Part shown: positions 16,193 through 31,649 of the stretch, in pieces
How the letters are laid out: the number at the start of each line of letters is the position of its first letter
How positions within the stretch are numbered: position 1 is the first letter of the stretch
Source: Thalassospira australica
GTDB lineage: Bacteria; Pseudomonadota; Alphaproteobacteria; Rhodospirillales; Thalassospiraceae
Assembly (NCBI RefSeq): GCF_000763295.1
Contig: NZ_JRJE01000032.1
Coordinates: forward strand, 496,001 to 560,000
Direction: 5' to 3'
Length of the DNA stretch: 64,000 bases
Position numbers and translations under genes: made by a program
The notes under the pieces: generated by a model
What the model was told of the DNA's origin: nothing
Databases searched by the model: none
The model's input: only the letters and a program-made list of their open reading frames with translations

Positions 16193-18343
16193 ATGAGTCA
16201 GTGCCCTGACGATATGTCCAACAGTTCATCCCCGGTCGGTCCCGACACTGCCTTTAGCGTCGGGACGAATGCTGTGGTTGATGAAAGTCAATGTGATCCC
16301 ACGGTCAAACTGCGTGGACCCGGTGTCGGGTCACGGCGTGTTTTCCTGTTTGGCGCGTCGATTGCGGCAACGGCTTATGCGGCGTGGTTGATGATTGATG
16401 TGTTAGGGGCCGATCAGCTTACGATCATGGAAATGGTTGTGGTGGCGTTCTTTACCATCAACTTTGCCTGGATTTCCCTGTCCTTCTTTACCGGCATGGT
16501 CGGATTGGTCCTGCGTGGATTGAAACGGGATGCGATCACGCTAAAGCCCCTAAAACCCATTGTGCGCAAAGGGTCATTACGATCTAAAAACGTTATCGTC
16601 ATCCCGGTATATAACGAAGACCCCAACCGGGTTTTTGCCGGACTTCGTGCCAGTTATGAAAGTCTGGTTGCGACGGGCGAACTGGACGCGTTTGATTTCT
16701 TTGTCCTGTCGGATACCCGTGATCCTGACATCTGGATTGCCGAAGAAATGGCATGGGCAAAGGCCTGTAACGATCTTGATGCGCGTGGCCGGATTTTCTT
16801 CCGCCGCCGGGCTGAAAATACCGAACGTAAATCGGGCAATCTCAAGGAATTCTGCGAAACCTATGCGGCCAATTACGATCACATGATCGTCTTTGATGCT
16901 GACAGTGTCATGTCAGGCGAGGCTATGGTCAATATGGCCTATCTGATGGAAAACAATCCTGATGCCGGGATCATTCAAAGCCCGCCGCAGCCGACCGGGC
17001 GCCAGACCCTGTTTGCGCGTATCCTGCAATTCATTTCGCGCGTGCATGGCCCGACCATGTCTGCAGGCCTGTCATTCTGGTGCATGGGCAGTTCGAATTA
17101 CTGGGGGCACAATGCCATCATCCGGACCAAGGCATTCATCGAATGTTGCGGGCTTCCGGTATTGTCGGGCAAACCCCCATTGGGCGGGCATATCTTAAGC
17201 CATGATTTTGTCGAAGCAGCCTTTATGCGCAAGGCAGGCTGGCGGTGCTGGTTGATCCCGCAGCTTGAAGGCAGTTGGGAAGAACTACCGCCCAATCTGA
17301 TCGATTTTGCCATTCGTGACCGCCGCTGGTGTCAGGGCAATATGCAACACGGGCGTTTGATGGTGGCGCACGGATTTAAACCATTAAGCCGTCTGCATTT
17401 CTTTATGGGGGTGATGAGCTTTGTATCATCGCCATTGTGGCTGCTTTTGTTACTGAGCTCGACAATTGCCACCCTGCAAAACACTCAGCTGACTTACAGC
17501 TTCTTTCCGGGGCAATTCACCATGTTCCCGCAATGGCCGGTGGATCGATCATTTGAAATGCTGGTGTTGCTGATCTTTACCATTGGCATGTTGGTCTTGC
17601 CCAAGATCATCTCGATCCTGATGGTTTGCCTTGGCCGGGATCGCAAAAAGTATGGTGGCGTGATGGTGCTGGCAAGTGGGGTGCTTGAAACCCTTTATTC
17701 CGCACTTCAGGCACCGATCATGATGATGTTGCATTCGCAATTTGTCTTTTCGGTTTTGACCGGTAACCAGGTGGGCTGGGATGCGCAGGAACGTGATGAT
17801 GCCGGTGTGCCCCTTAAGGCAGCGTTCAAGACTCACCGAACGATTATTGTAATCGGTTTGATCTGGGGGGCTGTTGCAGTCTTTGTCGATACCGCGTTCT
17901 TCTGGTGGCTGTCGCCCATTCTGGCGGGGCTGATCCTGTCACCATGGCTGACGCATTATTCCAGTAGTCTTGCCGTTGGTAAGGCCGCGCGTCGGTGGAA
18001 GCTTTTTGTCACGCCCGAAGAATATGACAGCCCCGATGAGCTTCGCGCACTTGCGCGGATCAATGCCGACAGTGGTGGCGCGGATGTCAAAGATGGTTTG
18101 ATGCGCCTGATCGAAGATCCATATGCCAATGCGCTGCATTCGGCGTTGCTCCCAACCCGCAAACCCGATGCCCGTACAGCGATCGAGATCGGCATCATCT
18201 ATGAAAAGCTTGCCCGGTTGGGTGTTGAAAGTCTGACCCGCGATGAAAAACTTCTGATCCTGTCCTGGCCGGTCAAGCCGCTTGATCAGATCATGGCAGG
18301 GCGCGACGCCCACCCGTCCGCCAATCCGGTTGTGTCATCGTAA
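16193..18343 (+). CDS. opgH: Glucans biosynthesis glucosyltransferase OpgH/MdoH
   Basis: This is the inner-membrane family 2 glycosyltransferase that polymerises glucose from UDP-glucose and passes the chain to the periplasm (716 residues). Two helices precede the catalytic domain (about residues 45-105). The GT2 motifs are clear: VIPVYNEDPNRVFAG, LSDTRDPDIW, the metal-binding DADS, the catalytic SHDFVEAAFMRKAGW and RRWCQGNMQH. Several C-terminal helices form the channel. ATG 16193 has AGGTAGAG a few bases upstream. It forms an operon with opgG, the gene order seen across proteobacteria. Confidence 0.94.
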   Translation: MSQCPDDMSNSSSPVGPDTAFSVGTNAVVDESQCDPTVKLRGPGVGSRRVFLFGASIAATAYAAWLMIDVLGADQLTIMEMVVVAFFTINFAWISLSFFTGMVGLVLRGLKRDAITLKPLKPIVRKGSLRSKNVIVIPVYNEDPNRVFAGLRASYESLVATGELDAFDFFVLSDTRDPDIWIAEEMAWAKACNDLDARGRIFFRRRAENTERKSGNLKEFCETYAANYDHMIVFDADSVMSGEAMVNMAYLMENNPDAGIIQSPPQPTGRQTLFARILQFISRVHGPTMSAGLSFWCMGSSNYWGHNAIIRTKAFIECCGLPVLSGKPPLGGHILSHDFVEAAFMRKAGWRCWLIPQLEGSWEELPPNLIDFAIRDRRWCQGNMQHGRLMVAHGFKPLSRLHFFMGVMSFVSSPLWLLLLLSSTIATLQNTQLTYSFFPGQFTMFPQWPVDRSFEMLVLLIFTIGMLVLPKIISILMVCLGRDRKKYGGVMVLASGVLETLYSALQAPIMMMLHSQFVFSVLTGNQVGWDAQERDDAGVPLKAAFKTHRTIIVIGLIWGAVAVFVDTAFFWWLSPILAGLILSPWLTHYSSSLAVGKAARRWKLFVTPEEYDSPDELRALARINADSGGADVKDGLMRLIEDPYANALHSALLPTRKPDARTAIEIGIIYEKLARLGVESLTRDEKLLILSWPVKPLDQIMAGRDAHPSANPVVSS

Positions 18344-19084: not shown

Positions 19085-19112
19085 AAAAAGAACCCGCCAC
19101 AAAGGGCGGGTT
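19085..19112 (-). terminator. Terminator of the beta-oxidation operon
   Basis: On the minus strand AACCCGCC / GGCGGGTT (8-bp perfect stem, 6-nt loop) is followed by a CTTTTTGG run. It lies 105 nt beyond the SDR stop at 19217 and faces the plus-strand terminator at 19031, closing two convergent units. Confidence 0.7.
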
Positions 19113-19216
19113 GAGTTCAGCGGGCGAGAGAGCCCGATCCACGCTGTGATCATTCACAATCGTAAAATCAGGCCCCTACGAGACGCCGAGGCACACACTT
19201 CCCCGGCGCCATACGG

Positions 19217-20110
19217 TCAGGCTGCTTTGTGAAAGCGGCCCAGTTTCTCCAACAGTTTGGCGACCTCGGGGTCGTTCTTGCCGTTGCGATCAAGCTCCAG
19301 GAAGAAGTCTGGATAGGGCGCTTTGCCCGGCGTGAGGTTGTATTGTTCAAAATCGGTCACGCCGATTGCTTCAAGCACGCTTTCATCGGTAAAGAAGCCA
19401 CCGGTGATATCGCCTGCGGGTGCTGTCAGAATCGCGTGCGCGGCATCGGCAATGATATCGGGTTTGCGCGCCCGCCCCTGTTCAAGACCGGGGATCATGT
19501 TAAGGGCAGCGGTTTCAATCACCGTTACCGGCCAAAGCGAATTCACCGCGACCCCTTCATCGGCAAATTCGGCCGCCAGGCCAAGGGTGATCAAGCTCAT
19601 GCCGTATTTCGAAATGGTATAGGCCGTATGATTGGCAAACCATTGCGGTGACAGGTTGGGCGGTGGCGACATGGTCAGGATATGCGGATTATCCGACTTC
19701 AGAAGATGCGGCAGGCAGGCCTGTGCACAGGCAAAGCTTGCGCGGGTATTGACCTGGTGCATCAGATCAAACCGCTTCATCGGGGTTTGCAGGGTCGGGG
19801 TCAGATTGATAGCGCTGGCATTGTTGATCAGGATATCGATCCCGCCGAATGTTTCGACGGTTTTGGCAACGGCGGCGGCAATCTGGTCTTCTTCGCGGAT
19901 GTCGGTTTTTAACGCAAGTGCTTTGCCCCCGGCCGCGATGATTTCGGTGGCGGCTGTATGAATGGTGCCGGGCAATTTGGGGTGCGGTTCATCGGTTTTG
20001 GCGATGATCGCCACATTAGCCCCGTCGCGTGCAGCACGCAGGGCAATTTCCTTGCCGATACCGCGTGAGGCGCCGGTGATGAACAGTGTTTTACCTGCTA
20101 AACTTGCCAT
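19217..20110 (-). CDS. HSDL2-like short-chain dehydrogenase
   Basis: This is an NAD(P)-dependent oxidoreductase of the SDR superfamily (297 residues). Visible motifs are the cofactor loop TGASRGIG (residues about 11-18), NNASAINLTPT, the active-site Ser in LTMSPPPNLSPQW and YTISK. The middle section is strikingly like the SDR half of animal HSDL2 (for example NTLxTPxKRxDLM and ISPPLNLNPxWF there). HSDL2 carries a C-terminal SCP2 domain; here that domain is absent, but a separate SCP2 gene lies in the same regulon at 31277. ATG 20110 has CAGGGA upstream. It is the last gene of the MerR-led operon, so a role in fatty or sterol-like acyl oxidation is likely. Confidence 0.88.
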   Translation of the reverse strand: MASLAGKTLFITGASRGIGKEIALRAARDGANVAIIAKTDEPHPKLPGTIHTAATEIIAAGGKALALKTDIREEDQIAAAVAKTVETFGGIDILINNASAINLTPTLQTPMKRFDLMHQVNTRASFACAQACLPHLLKSDNPHILTMSPPPNLSPQWFANHTAYTISKYGMSLITLGLAAEFADEGVAVNSLWPVTVIETAALNMIPGLEQGRARKPDIIADAAHAILTAPAGDITGGFFTDESVLEAIGVTDFEQYNLTPGKAPYPDFFLELDRNGKNDPEVAKLLEKLGRFHKAA

Positions 20111-20132
20111 GTTTCTGGTCCCTGAATTCTTT

Positions 20133-20939
20133 TTATGATTTGCCGAAATTGGGGCTGCGCTTTTCAACGAAGGCGCTCACACCTTCGCGGAAATCAGCAC
20201 TTACTGCGCAATCTGCGAATGATCTGGCTTCAAGAGCCAGTTGGTCGGCCAAGTTGGTTTGGGGTGCTGTGTTCAGCAAAGCCTTGGTGCGCGCAATCGC
20301 ATCACGCGGTCCCATCGAAAGTCGGGCAGCATATTGTGCGGTGGCCGATGCAAGCTGATCGCTTGGCACAACCTTATTTATAAGACCGCAATCATGGGCC
20401 TCATCGGCACCAAATCGATCCCCAAGAAGGGCGATTTCCTTGGCCTTTTTCATGCCAACCAGACGGGTTAGTGAATGGGTGGAACCGCCATCGGGCGATG
20501 TGCCGATCTGGATATAGGCCAGTGTGAAAACAGTTTCCTCGGCTGCGACGGCCAGATCACAGGCATTCATCAGGCTGATGCCAAATCCGGCAACCGCGCC
20601 TTCAAGTTTGGCAATCACCGGACGCGGCAGGGCATTGATGCGCGAGATAATGGCATGGACCCGATTGATCATGTCTTCGATCAAGGGGCGGGCTTCCTCA
20701 GCGGGTGACTGGCTGATTTGATAAAAGAATTTCACATCGCCACCGGCCATGAAGGTCCCACCCGAACCTTCGAGGATGACAGCCCCGATGTCGTCAATCT
20801 TGGCTTCGATCTTGTCCATGGCTGCGCCAAGACCCGAAACCATCGCCTGATCAAGGGCATTCATCCGGTCAGGCCGGTTCAGGGTGATGGTTGCAATCGC
20901 GTCAGTTATCGTCAGCAATACGGCGTCATTGGATGCCAT
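20133..20939 (-). CDS. Enoyl-CoA hydratase/isomerase family protein
   Basis: This is a crotonase-fold enzyme (268 residues) that hydrates or isomerises enoyl-CoA in beta-oxidation. NRPDRMNALDQAM, the oxyanion loop GSGGTFMAGGDVKFF and AGFGISLMNACDLAVAA are typical. In the second half, IGTSPDGGSTHSLTRLVG carries an Asp where classical hydratases have the second catalytic Glu, so isomerase-type chemistry is possible. ATG 20939 has AGGAGG 8 nt upstream. It lies 22 nt before the SDR gene in the operon. Confidence 0.9.
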   Translation of the reverse strand: MASNDAVLLTITDAIATITLNRPDRMNALDQAMVSGLGAAMDKIEAKIDDIGAVILEGSGGTFMAGGDVKFFYQISQSPAEEARPLIEDMINRVHAIISRINALPRPVIAKLEGAVAGFGISLMNACDLAVAAEETVFTLAYIQIGTSPDGGSTHSLTRLVGMKKAKEIALLGDRFGADEAHDCGLINKVVPSDQLASATAQYAARLSMGPRDAIARTKALLNTAPQTNLADQLALEARSFADCAVSADFREGVSAFVEKRSPNFGKS

Positions 20940-21005
20940 GTCGTTTCCTCCTGCGGGTCGTTGCCGCATGTTTTGGTCCCGTTTTCCGGGATTTGATCGC
21001 AGCTG

Positions 21006-21554
21006 TTAAAGCGCAAGCCGCGCTTCGATGGCGGTTTCCATATCCGGCCAGCCAGACAGCCAGTCGGGCATCGACGGGGATGTCTGATCCGCCCCTACCA
21101 GCCGACAGACCTCTTGGGGGGCAATGATGCCACCGGGGCCGACAAACACCGCCTTGACCACGCCAAGGGCCAGTGTCTTGCCTTTGGCGACAAAGCGCTG
21201 TTCAAGATAGAAGCCCTTGTCATCCCAATAGAGTGCCTGGGTTTCGAGGGTGAATTTCTGAAAAGGTTTGATTGCGCGCTTGAACCGCATGGTCGATCCC
21301 GAGACGACCGGCTGCCATTTATGTTTCAGCATCTGTTTGGCAATGCCGTTGCGCACGATCAGTTCTGTTCTGCCCAAATCCATCAAAGCGAAATACCGCG
21401 AATTGGTCATATGCACATTGATATCAAGATCCAGTGGCCATGCCCGGAATTGCAGGGCCGATGGATCAAGCGGATGCAGGCGGGGCCGCAACAGTGACAG
21501 GATCACAATACGGATCAGTCGGAAAATCAGATTCACGACAAAGCTCCGTTCCAT
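21006..21554 (-). CDS. Hotdog-fold acyl-CoA thioesterase (THEM6/4HBT-like)
   Basis: This is a 182-residue thioesterase-like protein. An N-terminal hydrophobic segment (VVNLIFRLIRIVILSLL) could tether it to the membrane. It is followed by a hotdog domain with the D/HxN-type stretch RAWPLDLDINVHMTNSRYFA, as in 4-hydroxybenzoyl-CoA thioesterase relatives and THEM6. ATG 21554 is the first sensible start; upstream codons overlap the dehydrogenase gene. It probably recycles CoA by hydrolysing acyl-CoA that stalls in the pathway. The substrate range is unknown. Confidence 0.82.
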   Translation of the reverse strand: MERSFVVNLIFRLIRIVILSLLRPRLHPLDPSALQFRAWPLDLDINVHMTNSRYFALMDLGRTELIVRNGIAKQMLKHKWQPVVSGSTMRFKRAIKPFQKFTLETQALYWDDKGFYLEQRFVAKGKTLALGVVKAVFVGPGGIIAPQEVCRLVGADQTSPSMPDWLSGWPDMETAIEARLAL

Positions 21555-21591
21555 GAGGTCCGGTAATGCTGAATGCGGCCCACAGCCATGA

Positions 21592-23376
21592 TCAGAACAG
21601 CTCCTCGTCAAGGGCCATCATGGTCGATGACCCTGACATGATCTGACTGAACAGGGCACCGGATTGCGGCAAGATACGTTCCATATAGAACTTGGCCGTA
21701 ATCAGCTTGCCCTTATAGAAGCCGTCGTTGTCATCGTCCTGTTTTGCAAGGGCGATTTCCGCCATGCGGGCCCACATGAAACCAACGGCAACCAGACCAA
21801 ACAGACGCAGGAATTCGCTTGCGGCGGCCCCGGCTTCGTCAGGGTTTTTCATCCCGCGCTGAGCGAGTTCACCGGTTGCCTGTTGCAAGCGCATGAAGGC
21901 CTTTGCCAACGGTTGGACATATTCGCCAAGTTCGCCGTTGGAAACATTGGCCTCGATATATTCCTGAACCGGGTGGAAGAACCGGCGAAGGTAACGGCCG
22001 GCCTTGGTCGGCATTTTACGCCCGACAAGGTCAAGGGCCTGAATGCCGTTTGTGCCTTCGTAAATCTGGGCAATGCGGGCATCACGGACATATTGTTCCA
22101 TGCCCCATTCGCGGATATAGCCATGCCCGCCAAAGACCTGAACACCAAGGTTGGTATTGTCAAAGCCCCAGTCGGTGAACAGCGCCTTGACGATGGGCGT
22201 CATCAGCTGGACGAATTCGTCGGCCTCTTCGCGTTTGACCGGGTCTTCGTGATGCTTGGCGGTATCAAGCGCACGTGCGACCCACATGCCCATTGCGCGG
22301 CACCCTTCATTGGTCGCCTTGGCGGTCAAAAGCATACGCCGCACATCAGGATGAACGATGATGGAATCAGCAGGCTGGTTCGGCGATTTTGCCCCCGTAA
22401 GGGCACGGCCCTGCAGGCGATCCTTGGCATAGGCACGTGCGCCTTGATAGGCCGCCTCGCCAAGCCCAAGACCCTGAATGCCGACCGACAAACGTTCCTG
22501 GTTCATCATGGTAAACATCGCGGGCATGCCCTGATGGGGGTCGCCCACCAGATAGCCAACTGCACCATCGAAGTTCATCACACAGGTCGAAGATGCCTTG
22601 ATGCCCATCTTGTGTTCGATGGAACCGCATTTGACCGCATTGCGATCCCCAAGTGATCCGTCATCCCCGACCATGAATTTCGGCACAAGGAACAGGGAAA
22701 TGCCCTTGGTGCCCGAAGGTGCATCGGGCAGTTTTGCCAGAACCAGATGGATGATGTTTTCCGTCAGGTCATGTTCCCCGGCCGAGATGAAAATCTTGGT
22801 GCCGGAAATCGCATAGGACCCGTCACCCAGCGGTTCTGCCCTGGATTTGATGATGCCAAGATCGGTGCCGCAATGCGGTTCGGTCAGACACATGGTCCCC
22901 GACCAGGTGCCTTCGACCATCTTGGGCAAGAATTTGTCTTTGAGTTCATCGGATGCGTGACTGTGAAGCGCGGCGTAAGCGCCAAATGACAGACCCGGAT
23001 ACATGCCAAACGACAGGTTGGTTGAGCAAATCATTTCCTCGACCAGTGCATTGATCGATTTCGGGGCGCCCTGACCACCATATTTCGGATCGCAGGCAAT
23101 GCCCGTCCAGCCACCTTCGGCAAAGGTTTTATAGGCTTCCTTGAAACCTTTCGGGGTGGTGACCACACCGTCGTCCCAGGTACAACCTTCTTCGTCACCC
23201 GATCTGTTGATCGGATAGAGAACCTCTTCACAGACCTTGGCGGCTTCTTCGAGAACCGCATCAACCACATCCGGGGTGAAATCCTCGCAACCGGGCATCT
23301 GATTGATATCGTTGTAATCAAACAGCTCGGTCAGGACGAAGCGCATGTCGCGCAAGGGTGCTTTATATTCAGCCAT
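21592..23376 (-). CDS. Acyl-CoA dehydrogenase (long form, DmdC/FadE-like)
   Basis: This is an FAD-dependent acyl-CoA dehydrogenase of 594 residues, longer than the usual 380 because of N- and C-terminal extensions. FAD-binding stretches MCLTEPHCGTDLG and ISGTKIFISAGEHD are clear, and the catalytic Glu is in IAQIYEGTNGIQALDL. Proteins of this architecture are annotated either as long-chain acyl-CoA dehydrogenase or as 3-methylmercaptopropionyl-CoA dehydrogenase (DmdC). The fatty-acid operon here favours a straight-chain acyl-CoA. AGGAGG lies 9 nt before ATG 23376. It follows the FadN-type gene by 21 nt. Confidence 0.93.
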   Translation of the reverse strand: MAEYKAPLRDMRFVLTELFDYNDINQMPGCEDFTPDVVDAVLEEAAKVCEEVLYPINRSGDEEGCTWDDGVVTTPKGFKEAYKTFAEGGWTGIACDPKYGGQGAPKSINALVEEMICSTNLSFGMYPGLSFGAYAALHSHASDELKDKFLPKMVEGTWSGTMCLTEPHCGTDLGIIKSRAEPLGDGSYAISGTKIFISAGEHDLTENIIHLVLAKLPDAPSGTKGISLFLVPKFMVGDDGSLGDRNAVKCGSIEHKMGIKASSTCVMNFDGAVGYLVGDPHQGMPAMFTMMNQERLSVGIQGLGLGEAAYQGARAYAKDRLQGRALTGAKSPNQPADSIIVHPDVRRMLLTAKATNEGCRAMGMWVARALDTAKHHEDPVKREEADEFVQLMTPIVKALFTDWGFDNTNLGVQVFGGHGYIREWGMEQYVRDARIAQIYEGTNGIQALDLVGRKMPTKAGRYLRRFFHPVQEYIEANVSNGELGEYVQPLAKAFMRLQQATGELAQRGMKNPDEAGAAASEFLRLFGLVAVGFMWARMAEIALAKQDDDNDGFYKGKLITAKFYMERILPQSGALFSQIMSGSSTMMALDEELF

Positions 23377-23397
23377 TTTCTGTTTCCTCCTGGACCG

Positions 23398-25734
23398 TTA
23401 GTTGCGCAACGGCTTGCCGGTTAGCAGCATGTGTTCAACACGGGCCATGGTGCCTTCATTACGGACCAGCCGCATGAAGCCTTCGCGTTCCAATTCAAGA
23501 ATGTCGTCTTCGGACAGTTCCTCGGTCACGTCGGTATCGCCCCCGGCCAGAACCTTGGCCAGTTCACCGGCAACCACACGGTCGTAATCGGTGGCCTTGC
23601 CAAGACGGTGGAACCCATCGACCGCCATTTCAAAGGCAACCCGTGCGGCTTCGCCCGGCAGGCGATAGGTGAATTCTTCGGGTGCTTCGTAACCATCAAC
23701 CATCGATAGTGCCCGTTCCTTGGCATCGGCCAGCAAACGGTTGCGGTTCATGGTGATGCCGTCACTCTCGCGGAAGAACAGGTTTTCCTTGGCTTCCATC
23801 GCGGATTTGGCAACCGTTGCGACCGAGATGATCTCGAACGCCTTGGCACTTGGGGCCATCGGACCTTTGACGAATTTGGAATTTTCCGCCCAGCGACGTA
23901 TCATTTCCTTACACCCGCCCCAGGCCGGGATCAGACCGACACCGGGTTCGACAAGCCCGATATAGGTTTCCCCATGCGCCTGAACCGCATCGCAATGAAG
24001 CAGAACTTCACACCCGCCTCCAAGGGCCAGGCCACTGGGGGCACCCACCACCGGGAACGGCGAATATTTCAGGGCCTTGTAGGTTTCCTGACCGGTTTCA
24101 ACCAGATTTTCGATTTCCGGCCATGCGGCGATATTGGCAGCAAACAGTGCGAGGCCAAGGTTTGCCCCGGCCGAGAAATTGCTGCCTTCGTTATAGATGA
24201 CCATTGCCTTGAACTGCTTTTTGACAGTCCGAATGGATGTCTTGATCGCGCCTAGAACATCCGAATCAAGGGCGTTCATCTTGGTATGGATTTCAAGGCA
24301 GGCAACGCCATCGCCGATATCCCAAAGCGATGCAGCACGGTTGCCGGCCACCCGTTCGGATTTGCGTTTGATGTCTTCAAGCAGGATGACGCCATCCGGG
24401 CGCGTGACTTTGGTATATGCACCATCAAAGCCAAGATAATAAAGATCACCATCCTCGACCTTGTAGAACGATTTGCCAGCCGCCTTTTTCAACAAGGCCG
24501 GGACTTCAACACCGTCCTCTTCCAGCATTGAAATCAGGGCATCAACACCGATGGCATCGATCAGTTCAAACGGCCCGGTTTTCCACGCATAGCCCAGCTT
24601 CATCGCATCATCGACATCGACGATGGAATTGGCCGCAGCCTCGGCAATGAAGGCAGCATAGGCAAGGGTCTTGCCCATAACAGCACGGCCATATTGGCCC
24701 CCCTTGTCAGAGGCTTCCATCATCTTGCGCGGGTCTTTGCCAGCGGCCCGGACACTGCTTAGGCGGGCTTTCTCGGATTTGGCAAATTCACCGGTTTGCA
24801 GATCAACCGATTCCTTGACCTTCTGGCCGCCATTGCGGTTCAGGCGGTAAAAACCACCCTTGCCCTTACGCCCGGTATAACCATCGGCAATCAGTTTGCT
24901 AACCAACTCGCTTTCACGGTAGATCGCGTGGAACGGATCGGATTTATCCAGAAGCCCCGCCATGCTCGATTGCACATGGGGCATCAGATCAAGACCGACC
25001 AGATCCATCAGGCCAAACACCCCGGTTTTGGGAATACCAAACGGGCGGCCAATGACACTGTCGGCTTCTTCGACTGTCAGGTTGCGGTCCATGGCCTCAA
25101 CCATGGCGGCCTGAATCCAGTAAACACCCAGACGGTTGGCGATAAAGCCCGGTTCGTCATGGCAGGTGACACAGGTCTTGCCCAGTTTGCGATCGGCAAA
25201 GTCGGCAACCATGTCAATCACGCCATCACGGGTAACACCCGATCCAACCAGCTCCAGCAGGCGCATATAGCGCGGCGGGTTGAAGAAGTGGGTGATGATG
25301 AAGTCCTGTGCGAAGCTTTCATCCATCCCGTAAATCAGGGTGGCGAGCGGAATGGTTGATGTGTTTGACGACACCACCGATCCCTTGGCACGGACCGCAT
25401 CAATCTTGCGATAGAGATCCTGCTTGATATCAAGGCGTTCGATGACAGCCTCGATCACCCATTCACAATTGGCGATTTTATCAAGGTCATCCTCGATATT
25501 GCCGCATGTGATCAGCTTGGCGACCCGTTTGGACATAAAGGGTGCCGGGTCGGTTTTCAGCATTTTGGCAACCGCGCCCTCAGCCACCGCATTGCGGTTT
25601 TTGGCCCCGTCGGGAACGATATCAAGCAACAGGACAGGCGTCCCTGAGTTGGCGATATGGGCAGCAATCCCGGCCCCCATAACACCAGCGCCAATAACGG
25701 CGACCTGTTTGATGTCTTTGGCTACCTTGGGCAT
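23398..25734 (-). CDS. 3-hydroxyacyl-CoA dehydrogenase / enoyl-CoA hydratase (FadN-type)
   Basis: This bifunctional beta-oxidation enzyme (778 residues) hydrates enoyl-CoA and oxidises 3-hydroxyacyl-CoA with NAD. The dehydrogenase half comes first: Rossmann motif IGAGVMGAGIAAHIANSG at residues 13-30, then the catalytic-His stretch IITHFFNPPRYM. The crotonase half follows (about 480-690) with NFSAGANLGLAL and LALGGGCEVLLHCD. This order is that of Bacillus FadN, the reverse of E. coli FadB. The ATG at 25734 overlaps the thiolase stop by one base (TAATG), so the two are translationally coupled. Confidence 0.93.
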   Translation of the reverse strand: MPKVAKDIKQVAVIGAGVMGAGIAAHIANSGTPVLLLDIVPDGAKNRNAVAEGAVAKMLKTDPAPFMSKRVAKLITCGNIEDDLDKIANCEWVIEAVIERLDIKQDLYRKIDAVRAKGSVVSSNTSTIPLATLIYGMDESFAQDFIITHFFNPPRYMRLLELVGSGVTRDGVIDMVADFADRKLGKTCVTCHDEPGFIANRLGVYWIQAAMVEAMDRNLTVEEADSVIGRPFGIPKTGVFGLMDLVGLDLMPHVQSSMAGLLDKSDPFHAIYRESELVSKLIADGYTGRKGKGGFYRLNRNGGQKVKESVDLQTGEFAKSEKARLSSVRAAGKDPRKMMEASDKGGQYGRAVMGKTLAYAAFIAEAAANSIVDVDDAMKLGYAWKTGPFELIDAIGVDALISMLEEDGVEVPALLKKAAGKSFYKVEDGDLYYLGFDGAYTKVTRPDGVILLEDIKRKSERVAGNRAASLWDIGDGVACLEIHTKMNALDSDVLGAIKTSIRTVKKQFKAMVIYNEGSNFSAGANLGLALFAANIAAWPEIENLVETGQETYKALKYSPFPVVGAPSGLALGGGCEVLLHCDAVQAHGETYIGLVEPGVGLIPAWGGCKEMIRRWAENSKFVKGPMAPSAKAFEIISVATVAKSAMEAKENLFFRESDGITMNRNRLLADAKERALSMVDGYEAPEEFTYRLPGEAARVAFEMAVDGFHRLGKATDYDRVVAGELAKVLAGGDTDVTEELSEDDILELEREGFMRLVRNEGTMARVEHMLLTGKPLRN

Positions 25735-26870
25735 TACATCGCCTCCAGAATGGTCGCGATTCCCTGACCCCCGCCAATGCATTGCGAGGCCAACGCATAT
25801 TTGCCGCCATCACGTTTAAGGATGCTTGCAGCCTTGCCGACAATGCGTGCGCCTGTCGCCCCAAGCGGATGTCCAAGGGCAAGCGCACCGCCATCAATAT
25901 TGACCTTGGCCCCATCCAGACCAAGGTCGGAAATGCTTGCCATGGCTTGGGATGAGAAGGCTTCGTTAAGTTCGGTGACATCGATATCGCCCGCACTCAG
26001 CCCGGCACGCGAAAGCGCCTTTTTCGAGGCGCCAACCGGACCGATGCCCATGATTTCCGGAAGGCATCCATCAACCGCAACCGATTTGATCCGCGCAATC
26101 GGGGTCAGCCCGTTTTTGGCGGCATATTCTTCGGAACAGACCAGAACCGCCGATGCGCCATCGGTCAGCGGCGAAGATGTACCCGCAGTGACAATACCGT
26201 CGGCCCTGAAGGCCGGTTTAAGGTCTGCAAGGCTTTCAGCGGTAGTTTCAGCACGAATGCAACCATCTTCGGAAACAACGCCGTCTTTGGTCTGGATCGG
26301 GATAATTTCATCGGTGAATTTGCCAGCTGCCTGTGCGCTCGCGGCACGTTTGTGGCTTTCAACCGCAAAGGATTCCTGGTCGGAACGGCTGAGTTTGTAT
26401 TTTGCGGCAACGTTTTCTGCCGTGTCGCCCATGCCCATATATGCTTCGGGCATGGTTTTATATAGTTCCGGATTGGGCAGCGGGTTAAAGCCCATCATTG
26501 GCACCCGGGTCATGCTTTCGACACCTGCACAGATGAAAACATCCCCGGCCCCAATGGCAATTGCGCCAGCAGCCTGATGAATTGACTGCATTGATGATCC
26601 GCAGAAACGGTTGACCGTCACACCACCGACAGAGCGCGGAAGGTCAGCAAGAAAAGTGATCAGGCGGGCAACGTTGAAGCCCTGTTCACCTTCGGGAAAG
26701 GCGCAGCCAAGGATAAGGTCCTCGATGGCTTTGGGATCAATACCGGTCTTTTCGACCAGACCTTTGACGACCTGTGCCGCAAGGTCGTCAGGACGGACCT
26801 TGGCAAGGGCCCCTTTGCGGGCCGGGGTAAAGGGGGACCGGACATACCCGGCAATTACGGCGTTGGTCAT
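25734..26870 (-). CDS. fadA: Acetyl-CoA acetyltransferase (thiolase)
   Basis: This thiolase (378 residues) cleaves 3-ketoacyl-CoA to acetyl-CoA and a shortened acyl-CoA. All catalytic residues are visible: the nucleophile Cys in NRFCGSSMQS (near residue 88), the His in ALALGHPLGATGAR and the second Cys in SQCIGGGQGIA near the C-terminus. AGGAAG lies upstream of ATG 26870. It is the first structural gene after the MerR regulator (44-nt gap) and works with the FadN-type enzyme that follows. The symbol is by function; paralogues in such genomes make the exact orthologue uncertain. Confidence 0.93.
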   Translation of the reverse strand: MTNAVIAGYVRSPFTPARKGALAKVRPDDLAAQVVKGLVEKTGIDPKAIEDLILGCAFPEGEQGFNVARLITFLADLPRSVGGVTVNRFCGSSMQSIHQAAGAIAIGAGDVFICAGVESMTRVPMMGFNPLPNPELYKTMPEAYMGMGDTAENVAAKYKLSRSDQESFAVESHKRAASAQAAGKFTDEIIPIQTKDGVVSEDGCIRAETTAESLADLKPAFRADGIVTAGTSSPLTDGASAVLVCSEEYAAKNGLTPIARIKSVAVDGCLPEIMGIGPVGASKKALSRAGLSAGDIDVTELNEAFSSQAMASISDLGLDGAKVNIDGGALALGHPLGATGARIVGKAASILKRDGGKYALASQCIGGGQGIATILEAM

Positions 26871-26914
26871 GGCTTTGTCTTCCTTCCTGAGCTGTCCTCT
26901 AATCCGGAAGCGTT

Positions 26915-27319
26915 TTACGCGACCGAATCGATTCCTTTTTCTTCAAGCGCATCAACCGATTGCTGTTCGATATCGCGCAGTTCGTCCAAAGTGACGTCCA
27001 GTGCCTGGCGTTGTTCTTCCAGGTCCGAAATCCGTTCCCGAACGCGATCGAGCAGCATTTTGATCTGCTCTGTCTGGGTGGGGTCCGCCCCATAAAGATC
27101 GAGATAATCTGCGATCTCTTTCAGGCTGAATCCCAGTCGCTTGCCCCGCAAAATAAGGAGCAGTTTGGCGCGATCCTGTCGGGTATAGACCCGGGTGGTA
27201 CCAGCACGCTGCGGGTTCAAAAGCCCCTTTTGCTCGTAAAAGCGGATGGTGCGTGGCGTGATGCCAAGATCGTCGGCCAGTTCGGGAACGGTATAAAACC
27301 GTTCGTCAGTTTTGGTCAT
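26915..27319 (-). CDS. MerR-family regulator, LiuR-like
   Basis: This is a 134-residue MerR-type regulator that heads the beta-oxidation operon. The winged helix-turn-helix spans about residues 8-75 (YTVPELADDLGITPRTIRFY, then TRVYTRQDRAKL). A helical dimerisation segment rich in Glu, Gln and Arg follows (about 82-120). There are no metal-binding cysteines, so it belongs with the acyl-CoA-responsive LiuR-type regulators described in proteobacteria, not the metal sensors. Two 16-bp GTTAAC-centred near-palindromes lie 45 and 85 bp upstream, and the same motif precedes the acyl-CoA ligase and SCP2 genes. It therefore probably controls all three units and itself. Confidence 0.9.
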   Translation of the reverse strand: MTKTDERFYTVPELADDLGITPRTIRFYEQKGLLNPQRAGTTRVYTRQDRAKLLLILRGKRLGFSLKEIADYLDLYGADPTQTEQIKMLLDRVRERISDLEEQRQALDVTLDELRDIEQQSVDALEEKGIDSVA

Positions 27320-27363
27320 TGTTCGCCCTCAATCGTATCTATTTTTCAGTATACGTCAATTAG

Positions 27364-27379
27364 TTTACGTTAACGTCAC
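27364..27379. promoter_or_regulatory. MerR/LiuR-type operator, site A
   Basis: TTTACGTTAACGTCAC, a near-perfect palindrome centred 52 bp upstream of the MerR start. Its exact reverse complement recurs at 31634. A possible promoter (TTGACG, 16 nt, TACGAT on the minus strand) starts just downstream. The consensus resembles the published LiuR motif as I remember it. Confidence 0.75.
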
Positions 27380-27403
27380 ATAGATTTTTTTGGTGTGTGT
27401 GAT

Positions 27404-27419
27404 GTGACGTTAACGCACT
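27404..27419. promoter_or_regulatory. MerR/LiuR-type operator, site B
   Basis: GTGACGTTAACGCACT, centred 40 bp from site A (about four helical turns, so on the same DNA face), between the ligase stop and the MerR promoter. One half-site is weaker than in the other copies. Confidence 0.65.
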
Positions 27420-27423
27420 GTAG

Positions 27424-29115
27424 TCAGGCAGTATTTTTTTCACGCTTTTTGCGTTCTTCTTCGACCAGTTCCTTTTTGGACAATTTGCCAACCATGGTTT
27501 TGGGAAGTTCTTCGCGAATTTCGATTTCGCGCGGCATTTCGATTCGTGAAATCTTGTCGTCAAGAAACGCCCGCAGATCTTCGGCGGTGACGTCTGTCAC
27601 GCCATCCTTTAAGCGGACAAATGCCTTGGGGGCCTGACCGCGATATTGATCGGGAACACCGATGCAGGTGACTTCGGCAATCTGTTCGTGCAGATAAAGT
27701 GCTTCTTCGATCGCGCGGGGATACACATTATAACCGCTGCACAGAATGACGTCTTTCAGGCGATCAACAAGGAAGGTGTAGCCTTCTTCATCCTGAAACC
27801 CGACGTCGCCAGTCTTGAGCCATCCATCAACGAATGTTTCTTTTGTTGCCGCCTCATTTTGCCAATATCCCGGCATCACTTGCGGGCCGCGAATGCAGAC
27901 TTCGCCCTTTTCGCCAAGGGCAACCGTTTGTTCGGGGCGTTCGAGTGACCTGATTTCAATTTCGGTGCCGGGCATTGGCCGACCAATCGAGCCTTCTTTG
28001 TTGACGCCCTTGACCGGGTTACAAGTGCAGACCGGGCTGGCTTCGGAAAGACCATAGCCTTCAACCACTTTGGATCCCGTGATTTCTTCAAAGCGGTGTT
28101 TGACTTCGACTGGCAGCGGCGCACCGCCAGAAATACAGCAGCGAACGTTCGACAGATCGTATTTCAACGTTTCCGGCGAATTGTTGATCGCTGTATAGAT
28201 CGTCGGCACACCGGGGAAGATGGTTGCCTTTTTCTTATCAAGCGCCTTGATCAGGGAAGCCAGCTCAAAGCGGGGTTGCAACACCAGTTCTGCCCCCATG
28301 TTGATCGATGTGTTCAGTGCCACGGTCATCGCAAAGACATGGAAGAACGGCAGAACACACAGGGTGACTTCATGGCCCGGATTGGCGTCAGGCATCCATC
28401 GGGTCAGTTGATCGACATTGGCGCTAAGATTGGCATGTGTCAGCATTGCCCCCTTGGGACGCCCGGTTGTGCCGCCGGTATATTGCAGAACAGCCAGATC
28501 ATTGACGTCCACATTGCTTGCCGTATCAATCGGTTTGCAGTCCAGAACGCGTGAATAGGGGATGTGGCGCAGATCGGTCGGGACGTCGGCCAGTTCACTG
28601 CGTTTAAACAGCGAAAACAGAACGCTTTTGACCGGTGGCAGGATGCTGCTCATTTCGCAAACAACAATGCGTTTCAGGCAAGTTTCATCCAGACAGGCCG
28701 CGACCTTTGGATAGATCTGTTTAAGGTTAAGCGTCACCATCAGGCGACAGCCGGAATCCTCGATCTGATAGGCGATCTCGCGCTTGGCATAAAGCGGGTT
28801 GAAATTCACCACCACGCCACCGCATTTCAGAATCGCGTAATAGCAAACCACATAATAGGGTGTGTTGGGCAGGCAAAGACCGACCTTGTCGCCCTTGCGT
28901 ATGCCAAGCTGTTTGAAACCTTCAGCAGCACGGTCAATTTGTGCACCAATGGTTTTATAGTCGTAAATCCGCCCCATGAAATCCAGGCATGGTCGCAACG
29001 GAAAACGTGCGGCAGCATTATCGAAAATCTCGTGGACCGGACGCGTTTTCACAGGCGAGCTGATATCAACGCCGTCTCGCAGGGTCGGGGATTCTTGAAC
29101 GTTTACTTTGTTCAC
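27424..29115 (-). CDS. fadD: Long-chain fatty-acid CoA ligase
   Basis: This enzyme activates fatty acids to acyl-CoA with ATP via an acyl-adenylate (about 563 residues). The AMP-binding P-loop YTGGTTGRPKGA, the YGLSEASPVC motif and the hinge GWLKTGDVGF..DRLKDVI are complete. I prefer GTG 29115, which has GGAG 9 nt upstream. An ATG at 29130 would add five residues, but it has no SD and lies inside operator C. It is a single-gene unit between the FadL gene and the MerR operon, on the same strand, and works with FadL by vectorial acylation. The C-terminus (KKREKN) is charged and soluble. Confidence 0.93.
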   Translation of the reverse strand: MNKVNVQESPTLRDGVDISSPVKTRPVHEIFDNAAARFPLRPCLDFMGRIYDYKTIGAQIDRAAEGFKQLGIRKGDKVGLCLPNTPYYVVCYYAILKCGGVVVNFNPLYAKREIAYQIEDSGCRLMVTLNLKQIYPKVAACLDETCLKRIVVCEMSSILPPVKSVLFSLFKRSELADVPTDLRHIPYSRVLDCKPIDTASNVDVNDLAVLQYTGGTTGRPKGAMLTHANLSANVDQLTRWMPDANPGHEVTLCVLPFFHVFAMTVALNTSINMGAELVLQPRFELASLIKALDKKKATIFPGVPTIYTAINNSPETLKYDLSNVRCCISGGAPLPVEVKHRFEEITGSKVVEGYGLSEASPVCTCNPVKGVNKEGSIGRPMPGTEIEIRSLERPEQTVALGEKGEVCIRGPQVMPGYWQNEAATKETFVDGWLKTGDVGFQDEEGYTFLVDRLKDVILCSGYNVYPRAIEEALYLHEQIAEVTCIGVPDQYRGQAPKAFVRLKDGVTDVTAEDLRAFLDDKISRIEMPREIEIREELPKTMVGKLSKKELVEEERKKREKNTA

Positions 29116-29128
29116 TTGCGTTAACTCC

Positions 29129-29144
29129 ATTACGTTAACGTCAC
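29129..29144. promoter_or_regulatory. MerR/LiuR-type operator, site C
   Basis: ATTACGTTAACGTCAC, 14-29 bp upstream of the preferred ligase start GTG 29115. A second GTTAAC at 29120-29125 sits 14 bp away inside the SD region, giving a possible tandem half-site. Confidence 0.72.
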
Positions 29145-29152
29145 TTTACGGG

Positions 29153-29197
29153 CAAAAAAAAGCGGCCCGGTGGGGATGGCTTCTGCCACCCCGCACC
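29153..29197 (-). terminator. Probable terminator after fadL
   Basis: On the minus strand a stem with one bulge and one mismatch (GGTGCGGGGTGGC, loop AGAA, GCCATCCCCACC) is followed after seven bases by a run of eight T. It begins 16 nt after the FadL stop at 29213 and separates fadL from fadD. Confidence 0.5.
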
Positions 29198-29212
29198 GAA
29201 CATTATAGCAGA

Positions 29213-30520
29213 TCAGAACTTGAATTTCGCCTGCAGTGCTAGGATATCCACGCTCGCTTCGTAATCGGCAGAAAAGTTGCCGAGGTTTGTGCTTCCGTGG
29301 TCGACACGTGCTTCATCGGCAAAGATGTGAGTATAGCCGAAGGTAACATCTACCCATTCTTTGACCTTGTAAGAAGCGCCTAGCGAAGCCCAATAACGGT
29401 TGGAGTCAGGCAGTCGCACGTTACGATTGCGGGTTTTGATCGGGGTCTCATCGTATGCTACACCGCCTGTAAACGACAAATTATCATCGTAGGCATAGCG
29501 TGCACCCAAAGCGCCAAACCATGAGCTGCCCCAATTATAAGCTTCAATGGTTGAGGCAGAGGCGGCGCCAACGGCGCTATTGGTCTCCCCGTCATAAAGG
29601 AACCGCAATGTGCCGATTGAGTTCCAGTTCGTCCACTGGGCGTCGGCCATCACTGTCCACTGATTGTTCAGATTATGTGAGATGCCAAATGCGATTGCTT
29701 CAGGCGTGGCAACTTTGGCTGTTGCATTGCGGTCAACGTAGTTAATTGCTTCTGCAGCGGTATCGAAGTCGATTTTTCCGTCGAGGTTATGTTTGACTTG
29801 CGAGTTGTATGAAAGGCCAAGATGAGTACCTTCAACCACTTCCCAGTTCAGGCCAGCTGTCCAACCAAAATCAATCGCGTCACCACTTATCTCCGCATTG
29901 CCCTCGGCTTTTGGAGCACCAACGCGCGGTACAGCTTTGCTCAGAGATGCCTCAAGTTGTTGAATTTGTGGTCCAACACCGATGCTAAGGCCGTTATCAA
30001 ATCGATAAGCGACTACAGGTTTGATATTAATAGTCTTAATTTTGGATGTTGTGCCAAAGAAGCGGCCGGCAAAGTCGGAATCATTGTCTGTCACAAGTCC
30101 CCACGGCGAGGTTATAGATACTCCCAAGTTGACTTGTTCGTTGAGTTTCCAAACAGCGTGAGCATTTGGAACTGCAGCATCTTGGGCCATGTCTTTATAA
30201 CCGCCACCGGTTTGTTCAATTGTGGTTAGGTTCCCATCACTAGCAACAATATTCGTTGCTTTTGCGACCGGACGAATAATCGTTACACCGGCGCTATAGG
30301 TCGTTTCATCATACTGACCAACTGTGCCCGGGTTGTAGGACATTGTTGAGGCATCAGTTGAAAGCGTCGCCATACCGGCAAAGCTTGACCCTTGCAGCGT
30401 GCCACTGGTTTCACGAACCTGAAAGCCCGACGCTTGTGCGGTGCTGACGCTGGCCAGTGCACACAAAAGTGCCGTACCCGAAGCTGCTCCCCACAAGCAG
30501 CCTTTCTTGAACTTTGACAT
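29213..30520 (-). CDS. fadL: FadL-family outer-membrane fatty-acid transporter
   Basis: This is an outer-membrane beta-barrel channel for long-chain fatty acids or other hydrophobic compounds (435 residues; FadL of E. coli is about 446). A Sec signal peptide ends at TAQA and the mature protein begins SGFQVRETSG, the plug-domain N-terminus typical of FadL. MSYNPGTVGQ and SSFAGMATLSTD are also family features, and the last residue is Phe, as barrels require. AAGGGAG precedes ATG 30520. Its central part has lower GC than its neighbours (20 of 60 bases in 30001-30060 by hand count). It is the third gene of the SCP2-DUF6134-fadL unit. Confidence 0.92.
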   Translation of the reverse strand: MSKFKKGCLWGAASGTALLCALASVSTAQASGFQVRETSGTLQGSSFAGMATLSTDASTMSYNPGTVGQYDETTYSAGVTIIRPVAKATNIVASDGNLTTIEQTGGGYKDMAQDAAVPNAHAVWKLNEQVNLGVSITSPWGLVTDNDSDFAGRFFGTTSKIKTINIKPVVAYRFDNGLSIGVGPQIQQLEASLSKAVPRVGAPKAEGNAEISGDAIDFGWTAGLNWEVVEGTHLGLSYNSQVKHNLDGKIDFDTAAEAINYVDRNATAKVATPEAIAFGISHNLNNQWTVMADAQWTNWNSIGTLRFLYDGETNSAVGAASASTIEAYNWGSSWFGALGARYAYDDNLSFTGGVAYDETPIKTRNRNVRLPDSNRYWASLGASYKVKEWVDVTFGYTHIFADEARVDHGSTNLGNFSADYEASVDILALQAKFKF

Positions 30521-30574
30521 TTGTTTCTCCCTTAATCTTGAAACGCTTCAAATCATTGATTTAAAACGCCCGCT

Positions 30575-31243
30575 TTATTCCTGAAGGGCAATCGCATCGA
30601 CCCGGATAAAGTCGATGTCGTAACCCTTTCTTTTGAAACTTGTTTTAAGCAATTTTCCGTCCGTGCCGTACCAAAGGTCACGTTCGACATCGCCTGACAT
30701 TTGGTAATGGACCGCCGGTGTTTCCCGGCTTTCGACCATTACGGTTTCTTCGCCGACCTTGCGTGTTGTCACGCTATAAGGTTCGGCATTGATGACGCTA
30801 AAGAGATTTGTTTTGGCGGTGACGCCTTCATGCCACAGGGTCAGTGGCCAGGCATTGTCACAGCCATCGCGTTTCCCGACACCCTTTCCGGCAAGTGCGT
30901 AGCAATCGTCTTCGAAGCTTGCCTGATAGGTGTAGTGTGTGCCGTCATCATTGGTGGTGGTATCCACGGCAATCAGCGTGTCACCCTGCCATTGTTCGGT
31001 GCGCTGATGGTCATAGTGAAATTGCAAAAACAGCACGCGAACGTCTGTCAGGGTTTCTACCCTGACGTTATGACCTGTTGCTGTTGGTGTGATTTCAACT
31101 GTCTCATAGCCGATTGGTTCCCCGTCCTTGAGGACACGGAAATTCAGCATTTCAGACCCAAAAGCCAACGAGACCGTGGCAGCTTGGATTAGAAACCCAG
31201 CAATCAGTACCGATATGGCGCGGTTTGCAACGCGATTGCGCAT
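30575..31243 (-). CDS. DUF6134 family secreted protein
   Basis: This is a 222-residue exported protein of unknown function. A Sec signal peptide covers about residues 1-29 (ending LAFGS). The mature part starts MLNFRVLKDGEPIGYETV and continues with alternating hydrophobic strands (HYDHQRTEQWQGDTLIAV, TNDDGTHYTYQASFEDD), which suggests an antiparallel beta-barrel or lipocalin-like fold. Two cysteines (DDCYAL and DGCDNAW) could form a disulfide. It lies 33 nt after the SCP2 gene and 54 nt before fadL in one operon under operator E, so a periplasmic role in handling fatty acids delivered by FadL is a reasonable inference. Confidence 0.8.
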   Translation of the reverse strand: MRNRVANRAISVLIAGFLIQAATVSLAFGSEMLNFRVLKDGEPIGYETVEITPTATGHNVRVETLTDVRVLFLQFHYDHQRTEQWQGDTLIAVDTTTNDDGTHYTYQASFEDDCYALAGKGVGKRDGCDNAWPLTLWHEGVTAKTNLFSVINAEPYSVTTRKVGEETVMVESRETPAVHYQMSGDVERDLWYGTDGKLLKTSFKRKGYDIDFIRVDAIALQE

Positions 31244-31276
31244 TTTCCCCTCGTAGAACAGATCATTCTGATGGTC

Positions 31277-31573
31277 TCAGTCGAGCATGGAGGACAATTT
31301 TGCCGCCACGCCCATGGAACCCTTGATTTTCAGTTTGCCCATTGTGAAGGCAAGCATCGGGTCAAGTTTTCCGGCGATCAGTTTTTCGAGGTTGGCTTTC
31401 TTGATTTTAAGAATGCAATCCGCATCGGACAGATCATCATCGCTGATTTCCGGTTCATCCCCGGTGGCATCGACAACAATATGTCCATCGTCGCCGCAAT
31501 CAAATGCGACAACAGCATTCAGGCCGCGCAATTGCGGTAGTTTTTCTTTTACGGTTTCGAGGATGTTATCCAC
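31277..31573 (-). CDS. Stand-alone SCP2 sterol-carrier domain protein
   Basis: This is a small cytoplasmic lipid-binding protein (98 residues) that consists of one SCP2 domain. Features are DADCILKIKKANLEKLIAGKL-like helix-strand pattern, LDPMLAFTMGKLKIKG and the C-terminal GVAAKLSSML. No ATG is available; GTG 31573 with GGGAGG 5 nt upstream is better than the TTG at 31588, which would place the SD inside the gene. First gene of the SCP2-DUF6134-fadL unit. SCP2 domains bind acyl-CoA and fatty acids; the partner could be the HSDL2-like SDR at 19217, which lacks this domain. Confidence 0.87.
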   Translation of the reverse strand: MDNILETVKEKLPQLRGLNAVVAFDCGDDGHIVVDATGDEPEISDDDLSDADCILKIKKANLEKLIAGKLDPMLAFTMGKLKIKGSMGVAAKLSSMLD

Positions 31574-31633
31574 GAACGCCTCCCTCAATCAGCAGGTATT
31601 CTTGTTATGGTTATGACCCGACTGTAATACAAT

Positions 31634-31649
31634 GTGACGTTAACGTAAA
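31634..31649. promoter_or_regulatory. MerR/LiuR-type operator, site E, with promoter
   Basis: GTGACGTTAACGTAAA is the exact reverse complement of site A. On the minus strand it lies largely within the 18-bp spacer of a possible promoter (-35 TTGTTT at 31648-31653, -10 TATTAC at 31624-31629), the arrangement expected for MerR regulators. The SCP2 start is 60 bp downstream. Confidence 0.72.

Follow-up and report, generated by a model that had tools for sequence, protein, structure and literature searches.

LiuR-like MerR proteins and a shared palindrome at fatty-acid degradation genes of Thalassospira: a candidate acyl-CoA catabolism regulon

According to Kazakov et al. in 2009, LiuR orthologues reportedly control the degradation of fatty acids in alphaproteobacteria. 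Here we describe a 64,000-nt stretch of Thalassospira australica DNA (the window), in which a palindromic element recurs at three adjacent units of fatty-acid genes, all on the minus strand of a cluster at 19085-31649, one of them headed by the gene of a LiuR-like MerR protein that we call MerR A. The orthologues reported in that study match this locus at the level of bacterial class, regulator family and target pathway. LiuR regulons are well described in proteobacteria (103 genomes in Table 1 of PMC5343134), and LiuR has been called a repressor in Shewanella (PMC3223726). The LiuR regulon of branched-chain amino-acid degradation in proteobacteria has in common with the candidate regulon found here a small MerR-family protein, a palindrome at the regulator's own gene, and liuA and liuBCD as targets; it differs in that MerR A lies beside fad genes, falls outside the clade of liu-linked MerR proteins and has targets of the fadD, fadL and fadN type, and in that two more paralogues are present here (PMC3223726; PMC5343134). 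In Rhodospirillum rubrum, an ILV (LiuR) box stands before merR and before both the ivd and the liu clusters, and the regulon has been linked to butyrate assimilation or growth; the targets named there are ivd and liu genes, and fadD, fadL and fadN, targets here, are not known to be among them (PMC7238569). FadR, PsrA and FadP also control fatty-acid degradation genes but belong to the GntR or TetR families and not to the MerR family (PMC5343134); the domain search of MerR A found MerR-type domains and listed no GntR or TetR match. Metal-sensing MerR activators (CueR, ZntR and MerR) have metal-binding cysteines, whereas MerR A (134 aa) is without cysteine, and none of the metal-sensor models listed gives it a score that reaches the curated cut-off.

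Since LiuR-type control of fatty-acid genes has reportedly been described before, the fad regulon of Thalassospira is ordinary in kind; what seems to add to the known picture is how large the regulon is within a single genus, together with the presence of three paralogues and of an operator overlapping the translation start of fadD. Among the matches listed in literature searches there was no experimental study of a MerR-family protein regulating fatty-acid genes in alphaproteobacteria, which is weak evidence as subscription papers were mostly beyond reach. Thalassospira is a marine genus often met on hydrocarbons, and the sites and genes described here make a clean and strongly conserved case of a candidate acyl-CoA regulon of the MerR family, in which the operators are defined and three paralogues coexist.

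We read the palindromes as operators of a LiuR-family MerR dimer, with MerR A controlling the three units of the window as part of one acyl-CoA catabolism regulon that would include targets elsewhere in the genome, the regulator most likely being a repressor; we put the probability of this reading, made from sequence comparison, at roughly 0.7. The three units at 19217-31573 are merR-fadA-fadN-acyl-CoA dehydrogenase-thioesterase-enoyl-CoA hydratase-SDR, fadD, and scp2-DUF6134-fadL. The initial annotation had placed GTTAAC-centred palindromes at 27364, 27404, 29129 and 31634, and the sequence confirms all four, including the claim that the sites at 27364 and 31634 are exact reverse complements. 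Its count of four copies had overlooked a fifth, degenerate one (GTTAAC at 29120, 14 bp from O3a), and its statement that every promoter has the element holds for three promoters and not four, the copy at 27404 belonging to the merR promoter region. The elements are given below; alignments comprise the own genome and 20 of the 28 congeneric relatives (n = 21).

27364..27379, operator O1 of the merR-fad operon, TTTACGTTAACGTCAC; TGACGTTAACGTAA in 20/21 and TTACGTTAACGTAA in 1/21 aligned promoters
27404..27419, operator O2, GTGACGTTAACGCACT; 40 bp upstream of O1, past the fadD stop
29116..29129, degenerate element O3b, covering the Shine-Dalgarno/start region of fadD; ATGGAGTTAACGC invariant in 21/21
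29129..29144, operator O3a of fadD, ATTACGTTAACGTCAC; TGACGTTAACGTAA in 21/21
31634..31649, operator O4 of scp2-DUF6134-fadL, GTGACGTTAACGTAAA; overlaps the proposed -35 (TTTACG-17-TACAGT)

Conservation of these elements is strong. The sequence ACGTTAACGTAA was unchanged at both merR and fadD in 21/21 genomes, and O3a and O3b lie together inside a 27-bp stretch, GTGACGTTAACGTAATGGAGTTAACGC, that is likewise invariant in 21/21 and also holds the TGGAG ribosome site. At scp2 the site reads TTACGTTAACGTCA in 16/21, TTACCTTTACGTCA in 4/21 and TTACGTATACGTCA in 1/21 genomes, while O2 is recognisable in 16/21 (the own genome included, and weak in L089) and absent in L076 and L085-L088. When up to three mismatches were allowed, 11 strand-hits of TTACGTTAACGTCA were counted in the window; shuffled sequences averaged 2.42 and 0/100 of them reached 11, and the only matches outside the cluster, at 16588 and 40295, carry three mismatches each. 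Bare GTTAAC was found 11 times in the window, near the chance level (shuffle mean 6.36; 11/100 shuffles reached 11), and was dropped as a marker. In a genome of 4.26 Mb (55% GC assumed), chance would give 0.02 exact copies of the 14-mer TTACGTTAACGTCA; it occurs at four places, three of them within the window. The earlier remark that the element occurs nowhere else thus stands for the window and fails for the genome, where the same element precedes other genes.

Each of the 29 Thalassospira genomes had 3-7 matches to the pattern TKACGTTWACGTMA on the forward strand and 3-8 on the reverse strand, compared with 0-2 and 0-1 for the reversed pattern; in the own genome TKACGTTWACGTMA was present at six places, against none for the reversed-pattern control. 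The sites outside the cluster in the own genome stand upstream of the following genes:

contig C3, 4HBT thioesterase; exact 14-mer
C31:681740, hotdog-isovaleryl-CoA dehydrogenase-thiolase (liuA) operon; overlapping elements TTTGACGTTAACGTTAACGTCAAC
contig C4, liuB-liuC-liuD; TGACGTTTACGTAA
contig C6, DUF2889 gene; TTACGTTTACGTAA
contig C30, ACAD8-like (isobutyryl-CoA-dehydrogenase-like) acyl-CoA dehydrogenase; element with one mismatch
contig C5, etfB; element with one mismatch
L313 (G000:C19:268126-268971), MoxR-type ATPase; GTTAACGYAAACGTYAAC-like palindrome, spotted via two relatives

The isovaleryl-CoA dehydrogenase was identified by its match to structure 4o5m (E 7.4e-199), the liuB-type gene by the methylcrotonyl-CoA carboxylase beta subunit 3u9r (E 1.5e-268), the ACAD8-like gene by 1rx0 (E 1.9e-151), and the etfB product by an electron-transfer flavoprotein (ETF) domain match. 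ACAD8 is isobutyryl-CoA dehydrogenase. Both leucine-degradation operons, liuA and liuBCD, bear the operator. Twenty stretches outside the cluster, from six relatives, were picked from the listed part of the genus-wide TKACGTTWACGTMA matches, and 19 of them had an identified gene behind the site, of the same five types (thioesterase 4, liuA operon 5, liuB operon 3, DUF2889 5, moxR 2). The twentieth, a TTACGTTAACGTAA site in genome G010 (L242), has no identified regulon gene behind it. The two one-mismatch sites were accepted solely for their conservation in relatives: the etfB element, followed in the own genome by TTGACA-17-TATTGT, is present in 27/27 aligned loci (2/29 not anchored), and that of the ACAD8-like dehydrogenase in 25/26, having drifted in L300, with L301 mis-anchored and 3/29 loci not anchored; the own locus is among these last, and its site was read directly, outside the relatives' alignment. 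The moxR palindrome occurs in 29/29 genomes (L306-L334) with few variable positions. Given the sites before leucine, valine and ETF genes, together with two further paralogues that could act on them, the earlier description of the cluster as a self-contained, local regulon was rejected: the fatty-acid genes are not set apart from the catabolism of branched-chain amino acids, and the DUF6134, DUF2889 and MoxR-type proteins gain functional context via the common operator. At the DUF2889 gene (L031:7497-8069) a TTTACGTTTACGTAAA palindrome directly precedes the start, and five stretches from five relatives likewise have the site ahead of DUF2889; immediately upstream of the etfB operator is a frame resembling a cobalamin adenosyltransferase (L026:829-1401, by eye).

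Three close LiuR-like MerR paralogues are encoded in 29/29 Thalassospira genomes: A in the window, B (56% identity) and C (50%), all with a similar DNA-binding sequence. The nearest named relative of A among the matches listed, from Thalassospira sp. HF15, is 97% identical. Each of the three merR genes is preceded by a palindrome of this class. At merR-A it is of the ACGT-NN-ACGT type in 21/21 genomes, a type also found at the liu-linked loci L219 and L226; at merR-B, TKACGTNNNCGTAA stands just before TTGACT in 10/10 promoters compared, in the same layout as at merR-A; and at merR-C, TTTACGTAAGCGTAAA immediately precedes the start codon in 12/12 compared. The sequence ACGTAAGCGTAAA was found at nine places in six genomes, every one of them before merR-B or merR-C. 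Together with related palindromes that other alphaproteobacterial families have ahead of merR and of fadL or scp2, these sites support the proposal that the LiuR-like MerR protein at 26915 is the likely regulator. MerR B (L038:7611-8048) stands alone, its neighbour being a convergent acyl-CoA synthetase/acetyltransferase-like gene (by eye). In a tree of MerR proteins (94 rows, 132 columns, many forks without resolution), C falls within a starred clade of 11 rows (100/98), in which the four rows with liu links alone are all found. A is placed outside this clade and groups with fad-linked rows, and B is also apart from it. Judged by this placement, with C inside and A outside the liu-linked clade, A is a LiuR-like, fad-linked protein and C is LiuR proper; the deeper split, at root level, has support of no more than 80/63, and its liu side includes five rows that are fad-linked.

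The central bases of the operators differ between targets. TTAA is found at merR-A, fadD, scp2, the thioesterase, liuA and etfB; TTTA or TAAA at liuB, DUF2889 and the isobutyryl-CoA-dehydrogenase-like gene and, less regularly, at moxR; and TAAG at merR-C in 12/12. At merR-B (n = 10) the centre is variable, with TAAG in 4, TATG in 3, and TTTG, TAAA and TTAG in 1 each, TTAA being present in none. This is suggestive of a centre-base pattern tied to the target set, with exceptions at the scp2 site, which has drifted to TTTA in four relatives (L085-L088), at L223 and at merR-B.

The merR promoter that we propose, from the consensus scan, is placed as follows:

27332..27359, minus strand, TTGACG-16-TACGAT just downstream of O1; TTGACG in 21/21

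The alternative -10 of the own genome, TATACT, was rejected as it occurs in 3/21 promoters only (own, L071 and L072). The scp2 promoter was placed by eye and is absent from the list of the consensus scan. The operator overlaps the proposed -35 at scp2 and liuB, falls within the spacer at liuA (TTGACG-17-TACAAG), lies near the -10 at the acyl-CoA dehydrogenase, and covers the start region at fadD and merR-C, positions that would suit a repressor. The proposed spacers (promoters mostly by eye) are 16-17 bp, which, with the lack of cysteines, would speak against the metal-sensing, DNA-untwisting action of other MerR proteins. In the mechanism that we envisage, MerR A would control its own operon (fadA-fadN-acyl-CoA dehydrogenase-thioesterase-enoyl-CoA hydratase-SDR), its own gene included, as well as fadD and scp2-DUF6134-fadL, and the same operator class would bring the thioesterase, the isovaleryl-CoA dehydrogenase operon, liuBCD, DUF2889, etfB, the isobutyryl-CoA-dehydrogenase-like gene and the MoxR-type ATPase into one regulon. 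The repressor would sit on promoters or start regions and be released when acyl-CoA builds up; the target set suggests an acyl-CoA or related intermediate as the ligand. The sites, how well they are kept, the genes that follow them and the paralogues were observed here; we infer that A binds the operators, alone or with B and C, that it represses, that it responds to acyl-CoA and that sites are shared.

To place the locus in a wider context, we compared the best 80 relatives of MerR A from named genomes, of at least 592 confirmed. By a permissive neighbour test (tblastn, E 1e-15, half of the query covered; for a few loci only a distant FadD), 70 of these 80 have at least one fad-type neighbour and five a liu-type neighbour, one of the five having both. 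Within 200 bp upstream of merR, the best match to the operator was 12/12 in 14 loci, 11 in 5, 10 in 12, 9 in 7 and 7-8 in 42 (control: plain base shuffling, 200 per locus). Within this search most sphingomonads showed no element upstream of merR, and their operator, if any, would differ. When 14 of the 80 loci, from other genera, were searched whole, at least one related element turned up in 13, most often ahead of merR, fadL or scp2, and L161 had none; this search ran without a shuffled control. The centres were mostly TATA, a tendency partly built in by one of the two patterns used, which was itself TATA-centred. In Magnetospirillum sp. 64-120 (L156) the identical 14-mer TGACGTTAACGTAA precedes scp2. 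By this comparison, the Thalassospira case is one member of a broad alphaproteobacterial arrangement. The earlier contrast, by which LiuR regulators govern branched-chain amino acids and fatty-acid targets would be a departure, is not borne out, in view of the 70 fad-linked relatives and of the fatty-acid control that Kazakov et al. reportedly assigned to LiuR orthologues.

Several observations weigh against the regulon as we read it. The consensus scan found two promoter-like sites, fewer than the average of 4.3 in shuffles, and the promoters were largely placed by eye; the operators of merR-A, merR-B and etfB sit directly against the upstream side of the -35, a position that would fit an activator equally well; the own moxR site deviates from the ACGT-NN-ACGT form; and in 42/80 relatives the best match in the 200 bp before merR is a poor one (7-8 of 12), so that the link between operator and family is not universal. 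Moreover, the shorter core ACGTTAACGTNA is barely enriched genome-wide (6+6 strand-hits, control 5+4), and when up to one mismatch is allowed there is no enrichment at all (36 per strand, control 44). With these forms near chance, the weaker sites stand solely on their conservation, and the one-mismatch search was rejected as a regulon list. The places examined were C19:335390, C3:47719, C4:208760, C5:77865, C30:193030, C30:350698, C5:173192 and C31:681740/681746; C4:208760 overlaps the liuB site, C3:47719 coincides in part with the start of a frame resembling argC (by eye), and C19:335390 was dropped as it lies inside a flagellar-protein-like frame (by eye).

How the duplicated regulators divide a shared operator code is a question that these sites open. 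A could be a private fatty-acid regulator of TTAA sites, with C of the LiuR clade serving the TTTA/TAAA sites in a separate network. Such a division would agree with the variation of centre bases between target sets, with the grouping of C, and not A, among liu-linked MerR proteins in the 11-row clade, and with the TATA centres of several fad-linked MerR proteins elsewhere; however, TTAA centres are also present at the isovaleryl-CoA dehydrogenase operon, at etfB and at the liu-linked MerR of Jiangella (L223), the scp2 site is TTTA-centred in four relatives, and the operator of C itself is TAAG-centred and not TTTA-centred, leaving this division on the whole unlikely. It is a speculative idea, and also rather unlikely, that the three paralogues share one palindrome class by which the import and oxidation of long-chain fatty acids, the breakdown of leucine and valine and the common ETF electron acceptor are coupled, and that the central bases set which acyl-CoA sensor acts where. 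That the operators are bound chiefly by C or B, A being a minor partner that merely lies beside fad genes, is improbable: the similar DNA-binding sequences of the paralogues and the same operator class at liu genes would allow it, but A is found with fad genes in 20/20 relatives and its own operator shares the TTAA centre with fadD, a centre seen in 0/10 own operators of B and 0/12 of C.

Against the preferred reading of a LiuR-type repressor, membership in the MerR family brings to mind a classical activator whose dimer untwists a spacer of 19-20 bp and switches promoters on, and a GTGACG-20-TATACT reading is indeed possible at the own merR promoter and in two relatives. TATACT is found in 3/21 promoters, though, as compared to 21/21 for TTGACG, the proposed spacers are of 16-17 bp, the operators are not consistently centred between -35 and -10, and there is no cysteine for metal sensing, so we regard this mode of action as quite improbable. 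We consider it highly improbable that the palindrome belongs to an unrelated regulator (e.g., of TetR or GntR type) and is near merR by accident, as it lies upstream of each of the three merR paralogues and such palindromes are also present at several relatives from other families.

The genes of the cluster, for which the calls of the initial annotation are broadly borne out by family matches, are:

19217..20167, minus strand, SDR of PRK08278 type; NF006133, 430 bits (cut-off 250)
20133..20969, minus strand, enoyl-CoA hydratase/isomerase; PF00378
21006..21611, minus strand, 4HBT thioesterase-like protein; PF13279
21592..23376, minus strand, acyl-CoA dehydrogenase; PF12806 at the C-terminus
23398..25782, minus strand, fadN-like 3-hydroxyacyl-CoA dehydrogenase/enoyl-CoA hydratase; PF02737, PF00725 and PF00378 in this order (dehydrogenase part first)
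25734..26870, minus strand, fadA-like thiolase; TIGR01930, 441.5 bits (cut-off 240.55)
26915..27319, minus strand, merR (paralogue A), 134 aa, LiuR-like by tree placement; PF13411, 67.3 bits, and PF09278, 54 bits
27424..29115, minus strand, fadD-like acyl-CoA ligase, start revised from 29130; top NCBIfam match NF005220, 514 bits, below its cut-off of 1116
29213..30520, minus strand, fadL-like outer-membrane transporter; PF03349
30575..31243, minus strand, DUF6134 protein; PF19630, apparent signal peptide (by eye), barrel predicted
31277..31573, minus strand, SCP2 domain protein; PF02036

For the fadN-like protein, too, the top NCBIfam match falls under the cut-off of that model. All eleven proteins are encoded inside one 16-kb stretch in 20/20 relatives (20 of the 28 of the genus), and, where it can be read, in four named Thalassospira loci (L147-L150), gene order is identical. 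The start of fadD is probably the GTG at 29115 (ATG in many relatives), after the conserved TGGAG; the ATG at 29130 was rejected on the promoter alignment of the 21 genomes. A degenerate operator element sits between the fadD ribosome site and the start codon.

The predicted model of the DUF6134 protein (pLDDT 87.2) gave as top PDB match 6ntr, a Brucella DUF1849 protein (Z 14.1, rmsd 3.5, 183 aligned), followed by the axonemal chain 9fqr (Z 13.4), 2h1t (DUF1089; Z 11.7) and LmcA (Z 9.5); matches to LolA, LprG and ependymin-like folds were at about Z 6-8, which may reflect merely a common arrangement. From its predicted fold and its place between SCP2 and FadL, the DUF6134 protein is a possible periplasmic partner of FadL. 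The regulon also holds both an SDR of PRK08278 type (19217-20167) and a free-standing SCP2 domain (31277-31573). In human HSDL2 an SDR of such type is fused to SCP2, and by analogy with this fusion the two proteins of the window may work together.

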